Assembly: GCA_019242465.1 (NCBI GenBank)
Contig: JAFAVL010000363.1
Coordinates: 1-7,052 of the forward strand
Source: Chroococcidiopsidaceae cyanobacterium CP_BM_RX_35
GTDB lineage: Bacteria; Cyanobacteriota; Cyanobacteriia; Cyanobacteriales; Chroococcidiopsidaceae
Length of the DNA: 7,052 nt
Direction: 5' to 3'
The notes beneath the pieces are model-generated. The model saw only the letters and a program-made list of their open reading frames with translations, did no database searches and was not told the DNA's origin. Positions 1,996 through 7,052 of the stretch are shown piece after piece (within the stretch, counting starts at the first letter, position 1; each line of letters opens with the position of its first letter). A program made the position numbers and the translations under genes.

Positions 1996-2027
1996 GAAAA
2001 TGGTATCGACTAAAAGAGATTAAACCC

Positions 2028-2216
2028 ATGCCTAACAGTAACCCTAACATTCTGGTGATTTGGGGGGATGACATTGGTATCACCAACCTGAGCTGCTACA
2101 GCGACGGGATGATGGGCTATCGCACGCCTAACATCGATTGCCTGTCTTTGATTGCCGTCGGTACGTTCGCGGTATTCTTAGCATTAAGAGAATATCGGCT
2201 TTCCTCAATTCTATAA
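2028..2216 (+). pseudogene. Arylsulfatase head fused to a DUF202-like tail
   Basis: Residues 1-37 are the start of a cyanobacterial-type arylsulfatase: [17 protein letters not shown], then [10 protein letters not shown]. This covers the Asp-Asp pair that ligates the active-site metal, but the sequence ends before the C-x-P/A-x-R signature whose Cys becomes formylglycine, so no sulfatase activity is possible. From about residue 39 the frame changes character to a hydrophobic segment ([15 protein letters not shown]) that resembles the last membrane helix of the DUF202 protein just downstream (LIAIGSFAFIGILFR). The DNA also matches there: ATTGCC, GGTA and TTCGCG are shared in register with 2655-2675. 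The simplest reading is a deletion that removed the rest of the sulfatase and most of a DUF202 gene, with the break near 2138-2145. The sulfatase part is clear; the DUF202 origin of the tail is inferred. Confidence 0.75.
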
Positions 2217-2295
2217 ATCGCTTTATCCTCGTGGCTGTGGATTTCAACAGTCTTATACGGTTTTTAACTATTAAAATTTATCTCTCAAATGAGCT

Positions 2296-2721
2296 ATGAC
2301 CGATTCCACCTCTATGCCCCATCCCCCTAATACTCAAGCTGAACTCGCCAAAGAGCGCAACCGGGCTGCCGCTGAACGAACCCTGATGGCATGGATTCGG
2401 ACTAGCCTGTCTCTCATCAGTTTTGGGTTTGGAATTGACAGTATTGTCAGTGCAATTCGCAGCTTTCAAGCTACTGAAAACATTAATCCAGTTCGATTCT
2501 CTCGCATTTTTGGATTAGCATTCATCGCTTTAGGCGTCTATGCCATGATTGTGGCAGCGATCGAACACCGTAGAGAATTACGACAAATTCAGCGCAATGC
2601 CGACTATTTCTATGACCCGCGTCGTTCCTTGGGATTCACTGTAGCATTCGCACTCATTGCCATTGGTAGCTTCGCGTTTATTGGAATTCTATTCCGGGCA
2701 TTTACAACCGTACCTTCTTAA
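2296..2721 (+). CDS. DUF202 (YidH-like) membrane protein, first copy
   Basis: This is a 141-residue inner-membrane protein of the DUF202 family, whose biochemical role is unknown. The family signature is clear: residues 16-38 read ELAKERNRAAAERTL, then MAWIRTSL, an amphipathic charged segment leading into the first membrane helix. Three hydrophobic helices are visible at about 38-54, 70-89 and 114-133, with a basic loop (HRRELRQIQR, 91-100) between the second and third. The start at 2296 has only a weak ribosome-binding site; Met7 (2314) is a possible alternative. A second DUF202 gene begins 19 bp after the stop, so the two are likely co-transcribed and may form a hetero-oligomer. Length and content are normal for the family. 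Confidence 0.87.
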   Translation: MTDSTSMPHPPNTQAELAKERNRAAAERTLMAWIRTSLSLISFGFGIDSIVSAIRSFQATENINPVRFSRIFGLAFIALGVYAMIVAAIEHRRELRQIQRNADYFYDPRRSLGFTVAFALIAIGSFAFIGILFRAFTTVPS

Positions 2722-2740
2722 ATTTCGCTGCATCGTGACA

Positions 2741-3151
2741 ATGACTTTACCTTATAAAACCACCAATGATACAACCGAACTAGCCAAAACACGAAATCGC
2801 CTAGCCGCCGATCGCACTCTTGCAAGTTGGATGCAAAATTCTTTGGGATTAATTGGATTTGGTGCGGGATTTCAGACCATATTGGAGGCGGTTAATCGCT
2901 CTTTCCCTCAAAATCATTCAGTGATTAACCAAAACATTACTTATGCAATCGGTTTAAGCGCGATCGGATTGGGCATTTTTCTGCTGATTCCTGTCCTGAT
3001 TCCATACCGTAATTACATCAAATCGCTAGAGCGGGAAGAATTCTCAAATTATCCTCCTCGTTTGTTCAACCTAAAGCTTCTGACCATGTCAATCACACTG
3101 TATGGATTCATCGCCCTGATTGCTGTTTGGTTTGTTCATTCTTGGAAATAG
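2741..3151 (+). CDS. DUF202 membrane protein, second copy
   Basis: This 136-residue protein is a divergent paralogue of its upstream neighbour: residues 13-44 (ELAKTRNRLAADRTL, then SLGLIGFGAGF) align with residues 16-47 of the first copy. Three membrane helices are predicted at about 34-51, 66-88 and 113-132. The reading frame is open further upstream (a TTG at 2657 lies inside the preceding gene), but the ATG at 2741 is preferred because it places the start 19 bp after the previous stop and puts the conserved DUF202 motif at the usual distance from the N-terminus. The conserved AWIRTSL motif is altered to SWMQNSL, so the family's Arg is replaced by Gln. Function is unknown; tandem arrangement and short spacing suggest a joint complex. 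Confidence 0.82.
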   Translation: MTLPYKTTNDTTELAKTRNRLAADRTLASWMQNSLGLIGFGAGFQTILEAVNRSFPQNHSVINQNITYAIGLSAIGLGIFLLIPVLIPYRNYIKSLEREEFSNYPPRLFNLKLLTMSITLYGFIALIAVWFVHSWK

Positions 3152-3156
3152 ACAGC

Positions 3157-3162
3157 AAGGAG
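3157..3162 (+). promoter_or_regulatory. Strong Shine-Dalgarno before the 27-codon frame
   Basis: AAGGAG lies nine bases before the ATG at 3172. It is the best ribosome-binding site on the + strand of this window, yet it serves a frame that stops after 27 codons. This fits a site left over from a full-length sulfatase gene. Confidence 0.6.
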
Positions 3163-3171
3163 ATCGAACCA

Positions 3172-3255
3172 ATGCCCAACGGTAAACATAACATCCTCAT
3201 TATTGATGGAGATGACATCAAAGCATTTTGCAATCGTTATAGAGCTAAAAAGTAA
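3172..3255 (+). pseudogene. Second arylsulfatase N-terminal remnant (27 codons)
   Basis: The frame reads MPNGKHNILIIDGDDIKAF and then a short basic tail before TAA at 3253. The first 16 residues match the sulfatase head at 2028 at MPN, NIL, the following Ile and GDDI, in the same spacing, and the leaders also agree: 11 of 16 bases before each ATG are identical, including the GAGAT..AACC core. After GDDI the resemblance is lost. I infer a decayed or deleted second sulfatase copy. The intact ribosome-binding site means a 27-residue peptide could still be made, so a small functional protein is not excluded. The match is short, hence the moderate confidence. Confidence 0.5.
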
Positions 3256-3286
3256 TTAAAGTAGACTACTAGGTTTCAAAACGACT

Positions 3287-4060
3287 ATGAATTACTGGAA
3301 TCGCATCCACTTCCGTAAGTCCAAGTTTTTCACTACAGGAGCTGCTCTTTTCCTGCTGTCGGGATTGATATTAACAACTCATATCCCGACTCTTGCCGCT
3401 AGTCAGCATGTTTCTCCGGCAACGAGTGTGCCGCCAAGCTCACTAGAACTGGGACCAGATAAGATCTTTACCTATTTCTTTGTGATGCTGGGACCAATCA
3501 AGCTTCTTGCTCCATTTGTAAATCTGACGTACAATACCGACAATTCCTTTCGACGACAACTCGCCTTCCGCGCCTTTTTATTCTCTTGCATCGCGGGTGT
3601 TGTGGCCGCACTCATCGGTCAATGGCTCTTGGTGAAGTGGGGTGTCTCGCTTCCTGCCTTGCTAATTGCGGAGGGCATTGTGCTGTTTCTGATCGCTTTA
3701 CAGATAGTCCTACAGCAATATGAGCCACCGATAAAGGAGCAGAGCGCACCATCAACTCCGTCCCTGGCTACAGCCTTTGCCCCACTAACTTTCCCCACAA
3801 TTATCACTCCTTATGGAACAGCAGCGCTGATCCTCTTGCTGGCAGCCAGGACAACGAGAGATGACTTTGCTGTCCTCGGCATATTTCTAACCATCATGGT
3901 CATCAACCTGCTGGCAATGTTGTTCGCCCGTCAGATTCTCCAACTCGTGGGCCTAACTACCTTGCGGATTTTAGGGGCAGTACTCGGGATTTTGCAGGTC
4001 GCACTAGCCATTCAGATGCTCATAGCAGCCGTACGCTTGCTTGCTGCAAACTGGTCTTAA
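3287..4060 (+). CDS. MarC-family integral membrane protein
   Basis: This is a 257-residue multi-helix membrane protein of the MarC (UPF0056) family. Family members are widespread; the name comes from the mar region, but a role in antibiotic resistance is not supported and no substrate is established. Family landmarks are FFVMLGPIKLLAPFVNLT (64-81), the IAEGIVLFLIALQIV helix, LTFPTIITPYGTAALILLL (the loop-helix usually read as FPL-GPG) and a C-terminal ILGAVLGILQVALAIQML. About six core helices plus an N-terminal hydrophobic segment (16-37) ending in LAAS are seen. The 50-residue N-terminal extension is longer than in typical 200-220-residue MarC proteins and looks like a cleavable signal or an extra helix. 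The start at 3287 has a poor ribosome-binding site. The gene ends 15 bp from the grrM stop, facing it. Confidence 0.85.
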   Translation: MNYWNRIHFRKSKFFTTGAALFLLSGLILTTHIPTLAASQHVSPATSVPPSSLELGPDKIFTYFFVMLGPIKLLAPFVNLTYNTDNSFRRQLAFRAFLFSCIAGVVAALIGQWLLVKWGVSLPALLIAEGIVLFLIALQIVLQQYEPPIKEQSAPSTPSLATAFAPLTFPTIITPYGTAALILLLAARTTRDDFAVLGIFLTIMVINLLAMLFARQILQLVGLTTLRILGAVLGILQVALAIQMLIAAVRLLAANWS

Positions 4061-4075
4061 GATAGACAATGCGTT

Positions 4076-5308
4076 TCAATCGTTAGTTTGTTTGGAACCA
4101 GCGCATGTAGACAATCCTTCCTCTAGTGCATTGAGGACAACGTCAGTCAACACTTTAACGCGGTTTTTGCAAGCATTCGTCTCTGCTGAGCGAAAGGTGC
4201 CATTCTCCCAATACTTGTTGCTGCTAGCTCCACCGCCGCAAACTCCAAAGTATGAACAAGTCTGCTGACACATCTCTATTCCTGTTGTTATGTCTTGATA
4301 AATTTGCTGAAACTTTTCGCTGTCGCACACCGATTCCAATGTGTTGTGCAAAACGTTTCCTAGAATAAAGTCTCCATATCGATCGGTCTCGATCGACAAT
4401 AGCTCTGGATCGAAGGTAGAAAAGTTGCCCTTGTGGTCTATGTTGACAATCGCAAACGGTCGGTTCATCTCAGTATTGGTCGCACGTTCTCCCATATAAA
4501 TCAGACTACAAATCTCCTCAAATTCTCGCAGCTTGAACTCTCCTTTTGTTCGAGCAACCAGTTGCCAAAATCGTTTGATGAACGCACGATAGGGCTCTTC
4601 GATTGCCGCATGATTGAGAGAAGAGGAGCGATGCACACCTTCGGTTTCTTCCATGTTGAACCCAACGTTGGTGATGCCATTGTCCATGAAAAACTGGAAA
4701 ATCTCGTCGGCATAGGCTAGAGAATCCTGAGTGAGGATAGCGATCGCACTAAAGTCAAGCTCGTTTTGTTGCAGGTAGGCAATGCCGCGCATTGTGCTGG
4801 CATGAGTTCCTAACCCTTTGCGCGTTTTACGATGAGCATCATGAATGAATGCCGGACCGTCAATGCTTACCCCCACATGCACATTATGTTGCTTGAATAA
4901 ATCGCACCAGGCTTGATTAATCAGCGTGGCATTTGTCTGAACCGTATGCCTGACTTTGCAGGGCTGGGTGTTATGTAGACGCTCGGCGTCACTGATGCGG
5001 TCAAACACTCCTTCATAAAAGGCAATGGGAACAGCCAAGGGTTCCCCTGCGTGCCAGCAAACCGTGAAGTCTTGCTTGAGAAACTGACTGGTGAAGAGTG
5101 CTTTGAAGATAGGTTGAATTAAATCCAGAGAGAGCAGATGTTTGGATTGGCGATCTGGCAGATAGCAGTAATCACAGTTGAGGTTGCAGAAGGAGGTGGG
5201 TTGGATTACCACTAAACGAATTGGACCAAAACTCGAACGATCGAATAATTTATGCTGTCTAGTATCAATTTCATCCTGAGAATAACCATTTAAGCTTGCA
5301 GTCATCAT
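4076..5308 (-). CDS. grrM: GrrM: radical SAM/SPASM cyclophane-forming peptide maturase
   Basis: This 410-residue enzyme is the maturase of a GRRM (OscB-like) RiPP system. It uses S-adenosylmethionine and iron-sulfur clusters to make radical C-C cross-links between aromatic rings and side-chain beta-carbons in the precursor. The radical SAM cluster motif is CNLNCDYC (C41, C45, C48), followed by the SAM-binding HAGEP motif and VSIDGP. A C-terminal SPASM-type region holds C347, C351, C357 and C380, with the characteristic CGGGASSNKYWENG between the last two. The start is secure: an in-frame TAA overlaps the AAGGAG ribosome-binding site just upstream, leaving only ATG 5308 or the adjacent ATG 5305. 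It is last in the operon, 61 bp after grrA. Related sequences are sometimes labelled arylsulfatase regulator or sulfatase-maturating enzyme because of shared SPASM architecture; the neighbouring precursor argues for GrrM. Confidence 0.93.
   Translation of the reverse strand: MMTASLNGYSQDEIDTRQHKLFDRSSFGPIRLVVIQPTSFCNLNCDYCYLPDRQSKHLLSLDLIQPIFKALFTSQFLKQDFTVCWHAGEPLAVPIAFYEGVFDRISDAERLHNTQPCKVRHTVQTNATLINQAWCDLFKQHNVHVGVSIDGPAFIHDAHRKTRKGLGTHASTMRGIAYLQQNELDFSAIAILTQDSLAYADEIFQFFMDNGITNVGFNMEETEGVHRSSSLNHAAIEEPYRAFIKRFWQLVARTKGEFKLREFEEICSLIYMGERATNTEMNRPFAIVNIDHKGNFSTFDPELLSIETDRYGDFILGNVLHNTLESVCDSEKFQQIYQDITTGIEMCQQTCSYFGVCGGGASSNKYWENGTFRSAETNACKNRVKVLTDVVLNALEEGLSTCAGSKQTND
4740..4747. 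repeat. HIP1 octamer
   Basis: GCGATCGC, the highly iterated palindrome of cyanobacterial genomes, lies inside grrM. Near matches (for example GCGATCGA at 2557 and 6710) occur elsewhere. It supports a cyanobacterial origin. Confidence 0.85.
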
Positions 5309-5316
5309 CTCTCCAT

Positions 5317-5322
5317 CTCCTT
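5317..5322 (-). promoter_or_regulatory. Ribosome-binding site of grrM
   Basis: Read on the - strand this is AAGGAG, eight bases before ATG 5308. The in-frame stop TAA overlaps its first bases, which fixes the grrM start. It is stronger than the sites seen before grrA and grrP. Confidence 0.75.
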
Positions 5323-5369
5323 AAGTGAGTGGTGCCAGCAGTCGATTGCCAGGCTGCCTTTACGAATCG

Positions 5370-5723
5370 TTAATCATGCCAGTCAAAGAATCGCTGCCCA
5401 TCTCCCCAACCATTGCGCCAGGGGTCTGAGTTTTTGAATTGACCGCCATGCTGTCGCCCATCAAACCAGCCATTATCACGGGAGCGCCTCCAGCCTCGAT
5501 CGTCGCCATCGGCAAAGCCCTTGGCGATTGTTAATTCGTTCGCACCCAACTCACTGGTTTCTGGAAGCTGTTGTTCTCGCTCTCGGATCAGTGCAGTGAG
5601 CCTAGATAACCGTTCCTCAATCGTCTGCGGCGCTGACTCCGCTGCAGAAGCCGGTGTTGTTGGAGGAATGTTAAAGGCTGACAAGGATAGTAAAAAGCCA
5701 ACTAAACTGATTCTGTTCTTCAT
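5370..5723 (-). CDS. grrA: GrrA: Gly-rich cyclophane RiPP precursor with signal peptide
   Basis: This 117-residue protein is the substrate peptide of the GRRM system. Residues 1-28 form a Sec-type signal peptide (basic MKNR, hydrophobic stretch to about 17, then Ala-rich PASAAES). Residues 35-53 (IEERLSRLTALIREREQQL) form a charged amphipathic helix, the conserved leader that the maturase is expected to bind. The core, residues 69-117, is rich in Gly, Trp, Asp and Arg and contains aromatic-x-Asp/Asn triads FAD (70), WFD (86), FKN (96), WRN (102), WGD (106), FFD (112) and WHD (115); these fit the three-residue cyclophane motif. NGWxDG occurs twice, 20 residues apart. The core lacks Cys, so lanthionine or disulfide chemistry is unlikely. 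The gene sits between grrP (72 bp upstream) and grrM. Mature product and function are not known. Confidence 0.9.
   Translation of the reverse strand: MKNRISLVGFLLSLSAFNIPPTTPASAAESAPQTIEERLSRLTALIREREQQLPETSELGANELTIAKGFADGDDRGWRRSRDNGWFDGRQHGGQFKNSDPWRNGWGDGQRFFDWHD
5397..5474 (-). repeat. Duplicated NGWxDG unit in the GrrA core
   Basis: NGWFDG (residues 84-89, 5457-5474) and NGWGDG (residues 104-109, 5397-5414) repeat with a 20-residue period. This suggests the core grew by internal duplication, as in longer glycine-rich GrrA proteins. Confidence 0.5.
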
Positions 5724-5760
5724 ACGGACTTCTCTTTGGAGTGATACTGTATTTCTAAAC

Positions 5761-5777
5761 TTTTGCTATTGGCAAAA
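5761..5777 (-). other. Small hairpin between grrP and grrA
   Basis: A perfect 6-bp stem, TTTTGC/GCAAAA, with a 5-base loop lies 18 bp after the grrP stop. It is not followed by a U run, so it is a poor terminator; it may be an RNA-processing or attenuation element, or chance. Confidence 0.3.
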
Positions 5778-5795
5778 TTGTGCGATACCCAATAC

Positions 5796-6731
5796 TTAGC
5801 GCTGAGAGGTATTCTGCCTTGCGTCCTCTGCCGGAGACACTCCAGCATGGGTTTCAATTTCAAAGGCAAAGAACGATCTGATTGTCTCGGGAGTTACCGG
5901 CGTCAGTCCATCAGGACCAAACCAGTGATTAATAATTTTCACTGAACGATTCTCACCCGTTAAATACCCCTGCATTAGCCCAATAATTGTTTGGTTGACT
6001 AGCTGCAGAAAACTCGAGTTGTTTTGCGGTACAACACAGCCTACGCCGTAGCGCGCATATGGGGAATCGGGCACCAGCTTATAGTCGTTGGGGTTAGGTT
6101 GAGCCTGCCGAGTGCCATCCAGGATGAGGGTATCTCCGGCAATTGCATCAACTTGTCCCTGGTTGAGGGCGGCAACCGCTTCCTTGACGCTCCTGAAATT
6201 CTTCACGAGCTTTACCTGTGGCTGTAGTCGGTGGAGAATGTCTTCTGCTGGAGAATCAGGTGCTACCACAATCCGTTGACCGACCAGCGATGCTGGAGTT
6301 GCCAAGGTGCTCTTTTTTTTGACTAGGAGTCGCAGACCGGAAATGGTGTTACTGATGGAAAAATCGACAAACCGAGCACGCTCCCAAGTAAAACCTACGT
6401 TGCAGGCAATGTCGATGGTGCTGTTTTGAATCTGCGGGATCAAGTCACTTGCACCGTCTTCGCTGATGTTAATAGGGTGTGTTAAGAGTTCGATGGGTTT
6501 GCCTAATTGCTTCTCTAATGACTGTTTGACAAGATCGAGGGTGTCTACAGAATAGCCGACGAGCTGCTGATTACCATTCACGTAGGAATAAGGAATTGTA
6601 TCAAACTGGATACCCACATTTAGATAACCAGTGCGTGCAGCTTTTTCGATAACAGTTTCAGCTTTTACCATACTGGGAAAAACTACAGCAAGCAGGAAAC
6701 TTAACAGAGCGATCGAGCATTTGCTGGGCAT
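5796..6731 (-). CDS. grrP: GrrP: exported family-3 solute-binding protein of the GRRM locus
   Basis: This 311-residue protein is a periplasmic solute-binding protein of the amino-acid type (SBP family 3), the class that turns up beside GrrA/GrrM without an ABC permease. Residues 1-24 are a Sec signal peptide (MPSKCSIALLSFLLAVVF, then SMVKA before ETV), with no lipobox Cys at the cleavage site. The SBP fold follows at about 33-270: GYLNVGIQFDTIPYSYV, then LVGYSVDTLDLV, the ligand-contact segment FTWERARFVDFSIS, then GLRLLVKKKS and the hinge-proximal VDAIAGDTLIL. An in-frame stop (6741-6743) four codons upstream makes ATG 6731 the earliest start, although its ribosome-binding site is weak. No transporter gene is nearby, so it may bind or present the modified GrrA product or sense a small ligand; that role is inference. 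Confidence 0.88.
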   Translation of the reverse strand: MPSKCSIALLSFLLAVVFPSMVKAETVIEKAARTGYLNVGIQFDTIPYSYVNGNQQLVGYSVDTLDLVKQSLEKQLGKPIELLTHPINISEDGASDLIPQIQNSTIDIACNVGFTWERARFVDFSISNTISGLRLLVKKKSTLATPASLVGQRIVVAPDSPAEDILHRLQPQVKLVKNFRSVKEAVAALNQGQVDAIAGDTLILDGTRQAQPNPNDYKLVPDSPYARYGVGCVVPQNNSSFLQLVNQTIIGLMQGYLTGENRSVKIINHWFGPDGLTPVTPETIRSFFAFEIETHAGVSPAEDARQNTSQR

Positions 6732-7052
6732 GCTTATTACTTATCAATGGGTTAATGGGACGCTATCAAGTTGCTCAAATAGTTATCTAAATAAGATACT
6801 ATTCTTCAATGGAGCAGAGCAATGGGTAGAATTAAGCAGAAAGTTGAGTGGTCAGTACATTACCATCTTGCCGTGAGGGACAAAGCCTTCAGTAATAAGC
6901 TCTGCAACCAACCCACAATCTTTCTGCCAAATGCTTCACTCCCTACCCATTCCTTATCTTTTACTTAACTTCTCAAACTAGGTGTTTAACTTCAAACTTC
7001 AATCCGTCTGATTCTGCCAGTATCTAATTAATGAATTTTGTCAGCATCAAGA
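6732..7052. other. Intergenic region upstream of the grr operon
   Basis: These 321 bp hold no gene I can support. They should contain the grrP promoter. Visible structure includes the inverted repeat at 6778-6803, two CCCATT copies (- strand) at 6746-6759 just before the grrP start, a 9-bp inverted pair AATGGGTAG (6821-6829) / CTACCCATT (6943-6951), and two direct copies of yTTAACTT at 6964 and 6985 followed by a tandem AACTTCA (6988-7001). A 48-codon + strand frame (6822-6968) has a GGAG seven bases before its ATG but no recognisable product. Confidence 0.5.
6778..6803. promoter_or_regulatory. AT-rich inverted repeat upstream of grrP, possible operator
   Basis: AATAGTTATCT (6778-6788) and AGATACTATT (6794-6803) are inverted copies with one extra base in the left arm, separated by AAATA. 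It sits about 46 bp before the grrP start. On the - strand a TTGAAG (6804-6809) abuts it, which could be a -35 element, so the repeat may overlap the promoter. No known regulator consensus was matched. Confidence 0.4.

Follow-up and report, generated by a model that had tools for sequence, protein, structure and literature searches.

The closest known counterparts of the locus reported here are the GRRM/OscB systems, which combine genes for a precursor peptide (GrrA/OscA), a radical S-adenosylmethionine (SAM) maturase (GrrM/OscB) and a solute-binding protein (GrrP), and whose precursors carry arrays of triplets made up of an aromatic residue, a variable residue X, and Asn or Asp (N/D). According to a review, OscB joins C7 of Trp to the C-beta of Asn or Asp, and C4 of Phe to the C-beta of Asn (PMC11002830). 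The stretch of DNA analysed here, 7,052 nucleotides of contig JAFAVL010000363.1 from Chroococcidiopsidaceae cyanobacterium CP_BM_RX_35 (the window, in whose positions all coordinates are given), contains an intact, well-preserved and ordinary member of this triceptide family, with a slightly unusual precursor. It is very probably a cyanobacterial GRRM/OscB-type locus in which GrrM links GrrA and the product is exported through Sec, with GrrP probably meeting it outside; nothing in it overturns existing knowledge.

With open reading frames (ORFs) called from ATG to stop, curated cut-offs applied for NCBIfam models, and ten window proteins scanned against Pfam, the locus comprises three consecutive minus-strand frames, all open throughout:

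5796..6731, minus strand: grrP, an exported orphan solute-binding protein of 311 amino acids (TIGR04262, 265.6 bits, cut-off 190; PF00497)
5370..5723, minus strand: grrA, the precursor peptide, 117 amino acids (TIGR04260, GrrA/OscA1, 70.2 bits, cut-off 31)
4076..5308, minus strand: grrM, a radical SAM cyclophane-forming maturase of 410 amino acids (TIGR04261, GrrM/OscB, 615.2 bits, cut-off 310; PF04055)
6660..6731, minus strand: GrrP signal peptide, residues 1-24 (ending MVKA before Glu25)
5640..5723, minus strand: GrrA signal peptide, approximately residues 1-28, with an AxA-type site near ASAA
5373..5516, minus strand: GrrA core, residues 70-117, with seven aromatic-X-(N/D) triplets plus W78-R-R80

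An earlier sequence-only reading had proposed three co-directional genes in these positions, and its coordinates and intergenic gaps of 72 bp (5724-5795, between grrP and grrA) and 61 bp (5309-5369, between grrA and grrM) were borne out. The profile searches it suggested for GrrA, GrrM and GrrP all returned scores above the curated cut-offs and far above chance level, excluding the failure of 4076-5308 to match the GrrM family that it had named as a refutation. Together with the repeated core triplets, these scores place the locus among the GRRM/OscB triceptide loci, and its description as complete is fair by family definition. The Sec-type signal peptides at the N-termini of GrrP and GrrA, both read directly from the sequence, likewise agree with the export of the two proteins that had been suggested.

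In GrrA the signal peptide (recognised by eye) is followed by a conserved middle part and then, from residue 70, by the core, in which the triplets are F70-A-D, W86-F-D, F96-K-N, W102-R-N, W106-G-D, F112-F-D and W115-H-D. Shuffling the 49 residues from 69 to 117 gave a mean of 2.39 triplets, with the observed seven equalled or exceeded in 91 of 100,000 shuffles, while residues 1-68 contain none. The sequence was compared with its subclade, making 17 GrrA in total (the window's own, P0001, with P0002-P0016 and P0020), with the four of 21 matches falling outside it (P0017-P0019 and P0021) left out. With N and D pooled, mean entropy was 0.05 bits at the first triplet position, 1.02 bits at the second and 0.05 bits at the third, and 0.53 bits across the 27 remaining core positions; third positions showed only N/D exchange, except in a single row at F112-D114. 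This pattern is the footprint expected were residues 1 and 3 bonded and residue 2 free. The claim that GrrM/OscB enzymes form three-residue cyclophanes agrees with this conservation, and with the review (PMC11002830). The aromatic residues of GrrA are probably stitched into small rings, and by analogy with OscB the reported bond types would fit five of the seven triplets, but not the Phe-Asp pairs F70-D72 and F112-D114.

Such arrays are general in the family. The fetched loci yielded 84 GrrA ORFs, of which one outside 80-220 amino acids was dropped. In the remaining 83, the last 50 residues contained 6.78 triplets on average, compared with 1.32 after shuffling, and the count exceeded the shuffled mean in every case; exactly seven were present in 16 of the 17 subclade members. 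The precursor had been described as Gly/Trp-rich, which for Gly is true only in a relative sense: the fraction in the last 50 residues is 0.20, whereas the median of the 83 ORFs is 0.32, and 14 are as low or lower. The same residues rank second of 83 for charged residues plus His. The core therefore differs from those of most GRRM/OscB precursors in having less Gly and more charge, within a 17-sequence subclade.

The enzyme predicted to act on this core was aligned with the GrrM of 22 listed proteins and of 44 of the 80 fetched loci, giving 67 sequences with the window's own. Two stretches hold seven of its eight invariant cysteines:

5165..5188, minus strand: radical SAM cluster motif, C41-X3-C45-X2-C48, in 67 of 67 aligned GrrM
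4169..4270, minus strand: stretch with the cysteines of an apparently single auxiliary cluster, C347, C351, C357 and C380, in 67 of 67 aligned GrrM

The first confirms the CX3CX2C motif noted earlier, here C41-NLN-C45-DY-C48, and the eighth invariant cysteine is C135; C84 (48/67), C267 (42/67) and C328 (55/67) are partly kept. SPASM domains, by definition, bind two auxiliary [4Fe-4S] clusters. In an alignment to the anaerobic sulfatase-maturating enzyme anSME (4k37), C347, C351 and C357 line up with the presumed Aux II ligands, with C380 lying past the aligned stretch. By contrast, the positions opposite the presumed Aux I ligands of anSME (T279, F285/I287, P301 and A361) are Cys in none of the 67 GrrM. 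Judged by its residues, GrrM thus falls outside the two-cluster definition, although NCBI still names the family 'radical SAM/SPASM'. With one cysteine set invariant and the other absent, it resembles a half-SPASM enzyme, having a single auxiliary cluster, and is predicted to carry two, not three, iron-sulfur clusters. The SPASM region claimed by the sequence-only reading was consequently half right: four SPASM-type cysteines are invariant, but the Pfam SPASM model (PF13186) is unmatched at E<=0.01.

The AlphaFold model of GrrM (mean predicted local distance difference test score, pLDDT, 90.2) has a predicted fold closest, among solved structures, to anSME and to ChlB, a radical SAM maturase of ribosomally synthesised and post-translationally modified peptides; both were solved with substrate peptides. 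ChlB is similar in fold (template modelling (TM) score 0.75-0.76; 9gm3, 9gmc), in its CGGG-type auxiliary cysteine set, and in having no aligned Cys across the Aux I stretch (9gm3), but is only 21-22% identical and has a different precursor. The model's likeness to anSME (4k36-4k39) extends to the fold (TM 0.72-0.73 by query length), CX3CX2C and one auxiliary cysteine set, and ends at Aux I. GrrM E302, invariant in 67/67, lies opposite the Asp that follows an Aux I cysteine of anSME; this Asp is presumably the catalytic base. No report of a half-SPASM GrrM, or of a link between grr and sulfatases, was found in open-licence literature, which does not imply its absence in print.

This resemblance raises the idea that GrrM is actually a sulfatase-maturing enzyme serving a neighbouring arylsulfatase, with GrrA incidental. 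Besides the fold, an arylsulfatase remnant within the window and sulfatase, FGE or anSME genes near some grr loci speak in its favour. Yet GrrM scores 164.4 bits against the anSME model TIGR03942, for which the cut-off is 349.45, compared with 615 for its own, and none of the 67 sequences has Cys at the positions aligned with the Aux I cysteines. Furthermore, Phormidium sp. LEGE 05292 encodes a separate, true anSME (TIGR03942, 501 bits) beside its GrrM, and Pegethrix bostrychoides an FGE gene. We therefore consider this explanation extremely unlikely, and GrrM is better regarded as the maturase of GrrA.

The distribution of GrrP was followed in 81 loci (80 fetched plus the window), every one selected for GrrM. 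Within 5 kb of GrrM, GrrA was present at 61 and GrrP at 51, and all 51 loci with GrrP also had GrrA; as the loci were chosen for GrrM, this co-occurrence is silent on genomes without it. In an alignment of 38 of the 51 GrrP ORFs, A24 at the end of the signal peptide is invariant and E25 present in at least 90%, while C110, W116, R118, D200 and C232 are invariant and position 115 is occupied by Thr (35 sequences) or Ser (three). The AlphaFold model (pLDDT 91.0) is closest in predicted fold to the Glu/Asp-binding protein DEBP (2ia4, 2vha; TM 0.74-0.75 by query) and sensors built on it. R118 and D200 correspond to what we take to be the Arg and Asp anchoring the amino-acid backbone in PF00497 proteins, with R118 opposite DEBP R97, D200 opposite a DEBP Asp, and two cysteines also matching in place. 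The difference is in the pocket, where DEBP S72 and R75, the latter presumably the Arg contacting the ligand side chain, lie opposite GrrP Ala94 and Leu97; position 97 is Arg in 19 of the 38 GrrP and Leu in 11. The simplest reading of these residues is that the ligand is of amino-acid type, with a side chain differing from Glu/Asp. The question of GrrP thereby narrows to a pocket of amino-acid type that departs from its Glu/Asp template at the side-chain end.

Such a pocket would also suit an ordinary amino-acid uptake protein that works with a permease encoded at another genomic site and is not directly connected with the peptide. The SBP_bac_3 fold, nearest that of a Glu/Asp-binding protein, and the universal R118 and D200 are what this explanation would predict. 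Against it stand the consistent pairing of GrrP with GrrA, subject to how the loci were chosen, and the outcome of the Pfam scan, in which none of the ten window proteins was a permease or an ATPase. Uptake is consequently a possible but disfavoured role, and the preferred one is an encounter with the exported product.

The following sequence of events is consistent with these observations. GrrA would be synthesised bearing its Sec signal peptide and, in the cytoplasm, GrrM would reduce SAM at the C41/C45/C48 cluster. The resulting 5'-deoxyadenosyl radical would abstract a C-beta hydrogen of an Asn or Asp, and this carbon would then bond to the aromatic ring located two residues earlier, on Trp or Phe. 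Invariant Glu302 might accept the proton released from that ring, and the one auxiliary cluster might accept the spare electron. Up to seven links might be formed (F70-D72, W86-D88, F96-N98, W102-N104, W106-D108, F112-D114 and W115-D117), each with the loss of 2.016 Da, or approximately -14.1 Da for all seven. The linked GrrA would leave through Sec, and its signal peptide would then be removed; no peptidase or ABC exporter was found among the ten window proteins scanned, although a dedicated exporter would be unnecessary, as GrrA bears a Sec signal. Outside the inner membrane, exported GrrP would probably bind an amino-acid-like ligand without transporting it, and this ligand could be the GrrA product or a fragment of it. 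As a compact three-gene example, the locus hence predicts seven linked residue pairs, five of which are the safest.

Several points weigh against this interpretation. Firstly, the number of links may be five, as Phe-Asp is absent from the OscB bond types in the review (PMC11002830). Secondly, one of the 17 precursors, P0012, breaks the F112-D114 triplet. Thirdly, within 5 kb of GrrM, GrrP was not found at 30 of the 81 loci and GrrA not at 20, some being cut by contig ends. Fourthly, the grr locus could be in retreat, as the surrounding region is decaying, with a sulfatase remnant and two insertion sequence (IS) elements. In its strongest form, the last point would make the locus a non-functional relic, its frames intact but its expression lost, in a decaying, IS-rich island, with IS630 and IS481 genes and the sulfatase remnant about 2-5 kb from grrM. 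However, all three frames are open, the invariant GrrM cysteines and the seven triplets are all present, and third triplet positions in the 17 GrrA vary only between N and D, bar the one row at F112-D114. A relic is therefore very unlikely, and a functional triceptide locus the better account.

The genes beyond grrM, which are part of the neighbourhood rather than of grr, are as follows:

3287..4060, plus strand: MarC-family membrane protein (PF01914 above cut-off; NCBIfam MarC-type models below theirs)
2296..2721 and 2741..3151, plus strand: two DUF202 membrane protein genes (PF02656)
2028..2147, plus strand: remnant of an arylsulfatase N-terminus (tblastn, 64% over 39 amino acids, E 2e-8; 60% over 40 amino acids to sulfatase locus L117)

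The MarC gene is convergent with grrM, 15 bp separating their stops, and is followed outward by the DUF202 genes, the arylsulfatase remnant, which is unmatched in Pfam and NCBIfam, and then the IS630 and IS481 genes. The IS630-type transposase (941-1995) is split across overlapping frames at 941-1420 and 1405-1995, and is preceded by the IS481 transposase (2-886), truncated by the window edge. A second sulfatase-like start, seen only by eye and unmatched, lies at 3172-3252, and with the remnant brackets the two DUF202 genes. A scan of 3900-7052 found promoter and terminator sites no more numerous than in shuffles, there were zero Rfam matches at gathering scores, and the only repeats were weak inverted pairs and short direct repeats in two copies.

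Among relatives, GrrM proteins up to 80% identical were found within the best 120 of 5999 matches, and of the named organisms in the genome collection Pegethrix bostrychoides (Oculatellaceae) was nearest. Strain GSE-TBD4-15B has a GrrM 76% identical to that of the window, the same gene order, and a GrrA of the same subclade. It differs in that neither DUF202 nor MarC, both present in the window, was matched in the stretch examined, and in that its longest FGE ORF starts 6 bp past the grrM stop, though the true start may be later. At E<=1e-100, GrrM was detected in two of 36 genomes from the order of Pegethrix, and in 63 of 388 sampled from its class, hence its distribution is patchy. In an IMG/VR scan with a GrrM profile, a pattern was matched by 45 stretches but none of them encoded a relative, so that no phage link emerged. 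A plasmid search with 2000-7052 returned six records, whose short matches lay in a DUF202 gene or the arylsulfatase remnant, and grr was unmatched.

Genes associated with sulfatases recur near some of these loci. In Pegethrix (L001:239-4369), grr sits between a sulfatase-like tail, a 72-residue ORF upstream of grrP resembling a sulfatase C-terminus (44% over 70 amino acids to L118; no Pfam match), and the FGE gene (PF03781). In the Phormidium locus (L002:6159-11146), the anSME, DUF1622 and DUF202 genes directly precede grrP-grrA-grrM, and in the sister strains Halomicronema CCY15110 and CCT1, a sulfatase gene and DUF1254 genes are downstream of grrM. A MarC-family gene, such as that near grr in the window, is found 51 bp upstream of grrP, in the same orientation, in Crocosphaera MO_199.B6 (L069:102-1904).

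These associations were quantified for 62 GrrM genes in 46 genomes, covering 50 of the 80 loci. Within 10 and 20 kb, respectively, two and four of the GrrM genes had a sulfatase (expected 0.41 and 0.82), three and four a DUF1254 gene (0.19 and 0.38), and one and three a DUF202 gene (0.34 and 0.67). Uncorrected Poisson p values ranged from 6e-4 to 0.29 across radii of 5, 10 and 20 kb, in a test picked post hoc, with genome sizes rounded, contig ends uncorrected, and partial pseudo-replication from genomes G100 and G343, which the GrrM tree places as sister lineages. On that tree, the seven loci given the loose, post hoc label of 'island' need five changes, compared with a shuffled mean of 6.8, and six of 500 shuffles were as low. 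The island also exists without grr, as sulfatase, DUF202 and DUF1254 genes sit together far oftener than they do with grr; for instance, 11 of 89 sulfatases have DUF202 within 10 kb (expected 0.72). Hence the association is a weak one, a small excess that represents a lead, not a result. It is quite improbable that the grr product is functionally part of a sulfatase/DUF202/DUF1254 island that GRRM loci joined separately in different cyanobacterial lineages, the charged-linker GrrA of this subclade and its altered GrrP pocket then acting on a sulfated substrate outside the cell or reporting it.

Other GrrM loci depart from the three-gene arrangement. The 20 of 81 in which both GrrA and GrrP are missing from the 5 kb around GrrM (L009, L012, L015-L018, L033 and 13 more) include all seven from Microcystis, and may reflect different precursors, overlooked ones, or contig ends. 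A cyanobacterial-type GrrM whose contig was assigned by binning to Candidatus Eremiobacterota (L051) may represent either transfer or mis-binning. Finally, Hydrocoleum sp. CS-953 (L005:1376-5110) has a tandem of three grrA-like genes, with an N-terminal piece of GrrM repeated (3610-3933) ahead of a GrrM frame of 397 codons without a stop.

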